Assembly (NCBI GenBank): GCA_016184115.1 | Contig: JACPDH010000028.1 | Location: 1 to 64,000, forward strand | Reading direction: 5' to 3' | Origin: Acidobacteriota bacterium | Lineage (GTDB): Bacteria > Acidobacteriota > Thermoanaerobaculia > Gp7-AA8 | DNA length: 64,000 nucleotides | Shown: piece after piece, positions 45,064 through 46,319 of the stretch | Layout of the letters: the number at the start of each line of letters is the position of its first letter | Position numbering within the stretch: the stretch's first letter is position 1 | The notes under the pieces: model-generated | Databases searched by the model: none | Told to the model about the DNA's origin: nothing | What the model saw: only the letters and a program-made list of their open reading frames with translations | Made by a program: the position numbers and the translations under genes

Positions 45064-45912
45064 ATGACGTCACGCACCGGCACCTGGCTGATCATTGTCG
45101 CGGCGATCCTCTGGTCGACCGGGGGCATCGGCATCAAGGCGATCACGAATGGACCGCTCGAGGTCGCGTGTGTCCGATCGATCGTCGCGGCGGTGACCCT
45201 CTTCGCGATCTTCCGGCCGAAGGTTCCGAAGCTGACGCCCGCATTCTTCGTGGCGCTGGTCAGTTACGCTGGCTGCCTCACATGTTTCGTTACCGCGACG
45301 AAGTGGACGACGGCAGCGAATGCGATCTTCATTCAGTACAGTGGGATCATCTGGGTGATTCTCCTCTCGCCGCGTGTTCTGGGGGAGAAACTGCGTCGGA
45401 GCGATGTCGTCACCGCGCTCATCGCCTTCGTAGGGATGGGGCTCTTCTTCGCTGGGGACGTCGACATGCGTGGCATGGCGGGAAATCTCGTCGCGCTTCT
45501 TTCGTCGATCTTCTTCGCCGGAATCTACCTCGGCCTACGTCGCGAGCGCGACAACGGGGCTGAGGCCGCGGTCTGCTGGGGAAACGTCCTCGCCGCGGCC
45601 CTGCTCGCGCCGCTCGCACTGCCAGGAATCGAGGTCACGCCTAAAGCTGGTGCCGTGCTTCTCTTTCTCGGGATCTTTCCGATCGCCGTACCGTACGCCC
45701 TCTTTGTTCGCGGAATCCGCACGGTGCCTGCGGTGCAGGCGTCATTACTCGGCATGCTCGAGCCCGTCACGAATCCCGTCTGGGTGCTGCTTCTCCTCGG
45801 GGAGCGCCCGAGCGTTCAGGCGGTGATTGGAGCGTCGATCGTGCTCGGAGCGCTGGGGTGGCGGACGGTGAAGAGCGGAAGCGGCAGCGAGGCGATCACC
45901 GAGGTTCGATGA
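45064..45912 (+). CDS. EamA/DMT-superfamily transporter
   Basis: Inner-membrane drug/metabolite exporter. Ten hydrophobic helices in two EamA halves: GTWLIIVAAILWSTGGIGIKAI...VACVRSIVAAVTLFAIF and, in the second half, ALLSSIFFAGIYLGLRRERD...FPIAVPYALFVRGIRTVPAVQASLLGMLEPVTNPVWVLLLLGERPS. 282 aa, normal. No Shine-Dalgarno: the heptamer array runs to within a few bases of the ATG, so its start signals have been replaced or lie in the array. Substrate unknown. Confidence 0.88.
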   Translation: MTSRTGTWLIIVAAILWSTGGIGIKAITNGPLEVACVRSIVAAVTLFAIFRPKVPKLTPAFFVALVSYAGCLTCFVTATKWTTAANAIFIQYSGIIWVILLSPRVLGEKLRRSDVVTALIAFVGMGLFFAGDVDMRGMAGNLVALLSSIFFAGIYLGLRRERDNGAEAAVCWGNVLAAALLAPLALPGIEVTPKAGAVLLFLGIFPIAVPYALFVRGIRTVPAVQASLLGMLEPVTNPVWVLLLLGERPSVQAVIGASIVLGALGWRTVKSGSGSEAITEVR

Positions 45913-45989: not shown

Positions 45990-46051
45990 CTAGTGGCCTG
46001 TATTGAAGGAATTGGTACGGCGGGACCAATTCCTCCAGTACAGGCCACTAG
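45990..46051. repeat. 62-bp palindrome adjoining the MITE
   Basis: 27-bp arms (CTAGTGGCCTGTA... / ...TACAGGCCACTAG) pair at 25 of 27 positions across an 8-base loop (ACGGCGGG). It overlaps the first bases of the MITE terminal repeat, which begins with a similar ACTAGTG. It may be a second, smaller non-autonomous element inserted at the same CTAG site, or a terminator of the EamA gene. Confidence 0.75.
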
Positions 46052-46319
46052 TGTAGTGTTTCGTTAATCCCTTGCCTTTCGTTGCGGCGGAATGGAGCCG
46101 ATTTCGCGAAGCGACGACGAGTCGATGTGGTTCATCGGCGAGGAGGAGCGACAAAGAAAGCGGCTCCATTCCGCCGCAACCCGGAGGGCAGAGCAGAAAC
46201 GGGGCGATCTCCGCGTCGCTCGTCGTCGACGATGAACCACATCGCCTCCTCCTCGCTCCTTGAGCTCGCCCCGTTTGTGCTCTGCGAAAGGCAACGGATT
46301 AATGAAACACTACACTAGT
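46047..46319. mobile_element. MITE-like element with 35-bp terminal inverted repeats and two internal hairpins
   Basis: Terminal repeats 46047-46081 and 46285-46319 match at 33 of 35 positions and start ACTAGTGTAGTG. Inside are two consecutive stem-loops: a perfect 20-bp stem (46081-46100 / 46161-46180) and a ~20-bp stem (46188-46207 / 46265-46285). Each loop holds a CGATG-5nt-CATCG mini-stem whose 5-nt tips are TGGTT and AACCA, complementary to each other. There is no coding capacity. TA lies at each end (cTAg), in keeping with IS630/Tc1-like targets. The right end supplies the apaG stop codon. Confidence 0.82.

Follow-up and report, generated by a model that had tools for sequence, protein, structure and literature searches.

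A 273-bp element at positions 46047-46319 of the window, the whole 64,000-nt stretch of DNA that was analysed, is probably a non-autonomous transposon of CTAG sites moved by an IS630/Tc1-type transposase, and it would belong to an old lineage of ~277-bp elements with replaceable ends and a hairpin module that, as a single strand, aids spread. MITEs are usually viewed as leftovers of a single transposon, bound to one transposase and to a single lineage; in this case, the ends are outlived by a body that retains its length, layout, and non-canonical hairpin in Acidobacteriota and in the phylum of a Gemmatimonadetes record as the ends come to suit other transposases. Should the hairpin favour mobility or tolerance, it would offer a direct handle on the success of small non-autonomous elements, and the layout with one hairpin per strand, together with a ladder of G.A mismatches in each hairpin, makes structural predictions that are testable in DNA or RNA.

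The element, its copies and its probable transposase

CTAG flanks the element on both sides (46048-46051 and 46315-46318), and most sister copies have the same CTAG...CTAG limits. The terminal repeats are 35 bp long and 94% complementary (33 of 35), and the stems of the two hairpins are 24 to 25 bp each. The features are as follows.

46047-46319, no strand: whole element; TA-to-TA extent 46049-46317
46047-46081, + strand: left terminal inverted repeat (TAGTGTAGTGTTTCGTTAATC...), from arm complementarity
46285-46319, - strand: right terminal inverted repeat, from arm complementarity and a terminal-repeat pattern search
46081-46180, + strand: hairpin 1, purine-rich on the + strand; outer stem 46081-46105/46156-46180, 96%
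46111-46121, + strand: hairpin 1 ladder, 5' side (GCGACGACGAG), pairs with 46139-46149
46139-46149, + strand: hairpin 1 ladder, 3' side (CGAGGAGGAGC), pairs with 46111-46121
46123-46137, + strand: hairpin 1 apical stem-loop, CGATG-TGGTT-CATCG
46180-46188, + strand: inter-hairpin junction, CCC-GGA-GGG (CCCnnnGGG in most relatives)
46188-46285, - strand: hairpin 2, inverted paralogue of hairpin 1, purine-rich on the - strand; outer stem 46188-46211/46262-46285, 92%
46219-46256, - strand: hairpin 2 ladder (GCGAGGAGGAG ... CGACGACGAG), with separators G-C, not C-G; encloses the apical stem-loop CGATG-AACCA-CATCG at 46230-46244
45990-46051, no strand: 62-bp palindrome (TAGTGGCCTGTATTG...) with 93% arms, an element that belongs to a different terminal-repeat family, lacks a core, and abuts the window element

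The original prediction of a MITE-like element with these 35-bp repeats and two long hairpins was borne out, and the element is present in multiple copies in its genome. The window element folded with z = -12.9 as DNA and z = -13.9 as RNA, surpassing shuffled sequences by about 13 standard deviations, and none of 200 shuffles folded as well in either case. Open reading frames of 63-78 amino acids are present in the element, and a coding body was considered and rejected: the ladder spacing falls in all three frames (22, 54, and 21 of 97), and the GAN frame contains a stop in 33 of 97.

A search for further copies in the element's own genome (4.42 Mb, 126 contigs) returned 74 BLAST pieces, and a hand count of the listed places gave about 37 sites with at least one hairpin. 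Ten copies of 166 to 273 bp belong to the same terminal-repeat family with both ends present; the short ones, down to 166 bp, are without one hairpin. Body-only relatives in the same genome have the ends TAGTGGCCTGTAA, TTAGTACTGCTCCCCGG, or TAGTGTTCCGTCCG. The terminal-repeat pattern of the window element gave 33 matches in its own genome and 4 in a congener; the remaining 18 of the 20 genomes had none. With respect to gene context, 25 of 29 own-genome elements have a called gene on each side (10 convergent, 9 tandem, and 6 divergent), 1 lies within a gene, and 3 were undecided; this tally rests on crude gene calls, and we build no claim on its slight convergent excess.

One neighbour is a gene that we take to be of EamA type, which ends at 45912, and on the opposite strand the other neighbour is presumably an apaG-like gene, whose TAG stop coincides with the terminal CTAG of the element (46315-46317). 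Two other own-genome copies (L004 and L015) have the same 4-base overlap with the end of a called gene. The palindrome at 45990-46051 and the window element have the CTAG at 46048-46051 in common, and in L033 and L035 the ends of the palindrome recur on either side of a core. Similar abutting pairs were seen in L008, in L010/L025, and beside an IS630 element in L201. Insertion of elements at each other's CTAG may be a route by which ends are exchanged.

An IS630 transposase (DDE_3) was not found in the element's own assembly, and such transposases were present in 4 of the 20 genomes of the relatives search. In another genome of the phylum, L116 is a 1233-bp IS630 element with ends TAGTATAGCGTTTCGTTAA (window element, TAGTGTAGTGTTTCGTTAA) and CTAG flanks, and its two reading frames match HTH_32 and DDE_3; a 1143-bp IS630 element with ends CTAGTGTAGTGTCTCC was found, also in another genome of the phylum, at L186/L201. 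Their NCBIfam IS630 scores are 113.8 and 270 bits, respectively (cut-off, 100). These two transposons, from two other genomes of the phylum, both have CTAG flanks and ends nearly identical to those of the window element; this supports the interpretation of the window element as an IS630-moved MITE, and a mover of IS630/Tc1 type acting in trans, as originally proposed, is likely. We suggest that insertion takes place at the TA within CTAG and that, most likely, an IS630/Tc1-family transposase binds the terminal repeats in trans. An IS630-family transposon reportedly prefers CTAG, according to the title of one paper in a reference list. The CTAG flanks and the CTAG common to abutting elements point to a probable duplication of the TA target, and IS630 insertion into TA is established (PMC2170065). 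No autonomous parent carrying the hairpins was found in loci of up to 8 kb, and among the places listed for the terminal-repeat patterns in seven genome entries (G062 and G160 being one genome), no opposed pair ~1-3 kb apart was acceptable as an autonomous element.

A ladder of G.A mismatches in two inverted hairpins

The original prediction had pointed to CGATG..CATCG mini-stems in the loops, with TGGTT in one and AACCA in the other, and to inverted blocks (GACGACGAG/GAGGAGGAG and their complements) in swapped order, all of which are present. Within one hairpin, GACGACGAG and GAGGAGGAG pair as C-G, G.A, A.G, C-G, G.A, A.G, C-G, G.A, A.G, and the pairing of 46111-46121 with 46139-46149 reads G-C, C-G, GA/AG, C-G, GA/AG, C-G, GA/AG, G-C. 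From these pairings, the loop blocks are predicted to form a ladder in which tandem G.A mismatches alternate with single Watson-Crick pairs as separators.

Loop 1 is a collinear homologue of the reverse complement of loop 2. Over 76 nt, the two halves of the element show 72% complementarity, which is explained by the origin of hairpin 2 as an inverted paralogue of hairpin 1, and the swapped order of the blocks likewise follows from an inverted paralogue with flipped separators: with the blocks exchanged on the purine strand of hairpin 2, the separators become G-C and the G.A steps are unchanged. We therefore picture the body as two inverted copies of one hairpin, which would place one purine-rich copy on each DNA strand, each consisting of a stem that is broken by the G.A ladder and capped by a small variable stem-loop.

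Conservation of the ladder was assessed in 58 diverse elements (150 of 195 matches kept, 94 after removal of second-strand matches, and 58 after thinning). All three tandem G.A steps of hairpin 2 are present in 43 of the 58, with a mean of 2.67 steps compared to 1.15 in letter shuffles (first 20 elements). Hairpin 1 has three steps in 9 elements, two in 11, one in 30, and none in 8 (mean, 1.36 versus 0.71 shuffled), and its third step is often Watson-Crick instead. Over all loci, 99 distinct perfect ladder hairpins were found, compared to 2 in a backwards-read control; in these 99, one of the two inner separators is G-C in 62 and C-G in 23, and the other is G-C in 69 and C-G in 21. Separators are Watson-Crick in 59.5% of cases (37 distinct arm pairs), whereas 2000 shuffles averaged 38.9% and did not exceed 52.0%. 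The split between C-G and G-C separators largely tracks hairpin 1 versus hairpin 2, and the mixed separators in L258 and L272 indicate that there was at least one more change. The ladder is retained in single-hairpin elements (L266-L268 and L275, of 167 bp, and L277).

Several variants of the body were also observed. The 167-bp single-hairpin elements L266-L268 have the ends CTAGTGTGGTGTCGCC, and G358 contains at least five such places. In the nzgw75 genome (L150, L155, L156, L157, L169, and L173), many elements carry an additional small hairpin of the ATCTGGGTCCGAAGGCCCAG type, inserted at the junction and within hairpin 2. L272, L273, and L279 (~308 bp) have ~35 other bases in place of the CCCnnnGGG junction.

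Distribution of the body and proposed replacement of its ends

A covariance model built from 27 cores, whose E-values are rough and whose per-genome counts are minima, detected the ~277-bp body in 74 of 297 Acidobacteriota genomes, representing 39 of 167 genera, and in 29 of 200 genomes from the phylum to which a Gemmatimonadetes record belongs; in 17 of these 29, the match was below 1e-10. There were single-record matches in Sphingomonas lenta (99 bits) and a Planctomycetaceae bacterium (113 bits). The cores came from loop-2 matches (n=91), from which those without loop 1 were dropped to give 49 cores and 28 representatives; the alignment contained 27 sequences, with L158 left out. TA-bounded repeats were found at 63 of 119 element places, with a median length of 276 bp and 26 of the 63 at 275-279 bp. 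The ends of these 63 elements fell into 23 crude clusters, some of which represent internal TA choices. The body occurs with some 20 different terminal repeats.

Ends of other transposase families were also encountered. Those of a G015 element (GGAACCTCTGCACAAGTCGG) have 19 nt in common with the end beside an IS5-family transposase in G009 (272 bits; cut-off, 140), a match to one end of a contig-truncated element. Those of a G012 element (AGAGGCTGTGAAAAAATCC) resemble, over only the ~10 terminal bases, the ends (AGAGGCTGTGCAGAAAT) of an IS1182-family transposon in the same genome, whose transposase scored 322 bits (cut-off, 270). Since ends match IS630 and IS5, and weakly IS1182, one body appears with the ends of two, perhaps three, transposase families. 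The DUF772 domain (IS5/IS1182 type) was present in 2 of the 20 relatives and was not found in the element's own genome. In L198:1258-3153 (-), one open frame combines an IS5 transposase with a REP-associated tyrosine transposase domain, either by fusion or by stop-free read-through.

We propose that the ~277-bp body has stayed constant while terminal repeats were replaced, coming to match those of IS630, IS5, and perhaps IS1182. A host or common factor would recognise the hairpin, which would aid spread whichever transposase serves. Since the copies in one genome descend from active masters and the body is kept over a wide span, a role in propagation that is independent of the transposase would be the simplest explanation. 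More tentatively, the body could be a transposase-independent parasite of fixed length, present in at least two phyla and trading ends among IS630, IS5, and IS1182, with the ladder as a real recognition device read in single-stranded form by a conserved host protein; we consider this stronger version possible, though on balance doubtful.

A literature search, with subscription journals mostly outside its scope, found no paper on this element, and known systems resemble it in part. Parvovirus-type terminal hairpins are stems with two internal hairpins side by side, as in the window element; this likeness is one of shape only, as the element is not a replication origin and has no sequence in common with them. 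RUP of Streptococcus pneumoniae, associated with IS630-Spn1, is likewise non-coding, with IS630-like terminal repeats, a TA target, and many intergenic copies, but it is 107 bp long and confined to one species, and no two-hairpin body, G.A ladder, or end exchange is described in the available portion of the source (PMC2229807). The same portion presents CIR of Caulobacter and Brucella as two long arms with a linker, conserved between genera and with a conserved motif near the loop; CIR differs in its length of about 110 bp, its GANTC motif, terminal repeats marked absent, and arms that are not described there as inverted paralogues (PMC2229807). The apical loops of the window element, TGGTT and AACCA, contain no GANTC. 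REP/BIME elements with RAYT also form paired hairpins in many intergenic copies, but, in the part of the account available, they consist of units of 20-40 bp that are tagged by GTAG or CGTC and have no terminal inverted repeats with a TA target (PMC3733652), unlike the 273-bp window element with its terminal repeats. The IS630 transposons (ISY100 and IS630) resemble it in TA insertion, according to the accessible part of the source (PMC2170065), and differ in being autonomous and, here, about 1.1-1.2 kb long; only the ends are common to the window element.

Strand preference and the proposed working form of the hairpin

Changes on both sides were seen in 40 of 60 stem pairs (27 sequences), and in model-aligned counts two-sided pair differences outnumbered one-sided ones by 25,993 to 3,328. 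Wobble pairs are rare, at about 2% of stem pairs. These were compared in 76 pooled elements, with the stems measured in 66 and 65; model-aligned counts, which are biased towards G.T, were excluded. On the purine strand of each hairpin, G.T exceeded A.C by 60 to 29 (p = 0.001), whereas on one common strand the counts were 42 and 47, with no bias; the polarity of the hairpins was already known when it was decided to divide the counts by purine strand. After thinning, the purine-strand ratios were 33:14 at <80% identity (p = 0.008) and 20:8 at <75% identity (p = 0.036), and no bias was found at <70% identity (7:9, 12 elements). Earlier, smaller tests on one common strand gave no bias (8:9, 9:16, and 41:35). 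Because the G.T excess appears per purine strand and not on a common strand, we read this as selection on each hairpin's own purine strand, that is, probably one hairpin per DNA strand. The original suggestion of a structure formed in the single strand finds support, its conservation being seen in the G.A ladder and the strand-specific wobble.

The hairpin would act as a folded single strand, more likely in single-stranded DNA at replication than in RNA. We prefer single-stranded DNA at forks because the arms change together, as in hairpin-templated repair, and because this form serves both strands. As the working form, RNA is a close rival: transcription in either direction would yield one ladder hairpin that acts in termination, stabilisation, or protein recruitment and so lets insertions be tolerated or become useful. 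The location of 25 of 29 own-genome elements between two called genes is consistent with such a module, as are the tolerance of purine-strand G.T twice as often as A.C and, in the available part of the source, the action of known MITE hairpins in transcripts (PMC2229807). We nonetheless regard it as rather unlikely, since wobble pairs are so rare, two-sided changes dominate in a manner unlike drift through G.U, and Rfam gave no family at threshold, its matches lying far below gathering scores and being mostly to long-hairpin microRNA models.

The joint change of the arms is also what template switching would yield if the body were functionless baggage, its stems paired only because hairpin-templated repair copies arm to arm, and deletion derivatives without one hairpin do exist. 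This would leave unexplained why the ladder persists in two phyla even as the stems, apices, and ends vary, as well as the compensatory separators, the constant length, and the purine-strand wobble, and we judge it improbable. The wobble places the two hairpins on opposite strands, and there is therefore no need for both in one folded molecule.

The original prediction had suggested such a molecule, a single folded strand in which kissing loops and pairing between the hairpins hold the two together, as the possible unit of selection; the TGGTT/AACCA match is indeed perfect in the window copy, but we now consider this highly improbable, since the match is missing in most sister copies, the blocks pair inside each hairpin, single-hairpin elements keep the blocks without a partner, and the wobble sets the hairpins on opposite strands. 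Kissing loops were rejected as not conserved, first in 28 and then in 54 elements (4 of the 58 with long apices having been removed). Fully complementary apices occur in 5 of the 54, the window element included, and the pairing score of own apices exceeded that of swapped ones only weakly or not at all (8.67 versus 8.02 +/- 0.30, with 2.3% of swaps reaching the own score in the 54 elements and 10% in the first 28). Among the other own-genome members of this terminal-repeat family, the hairpin-1 apex is readable in 12; it is TGGTA, not TGGTT, in 11 of them and TGGTT in one degenerate copy (L032), as it is in a congener copy (L076).
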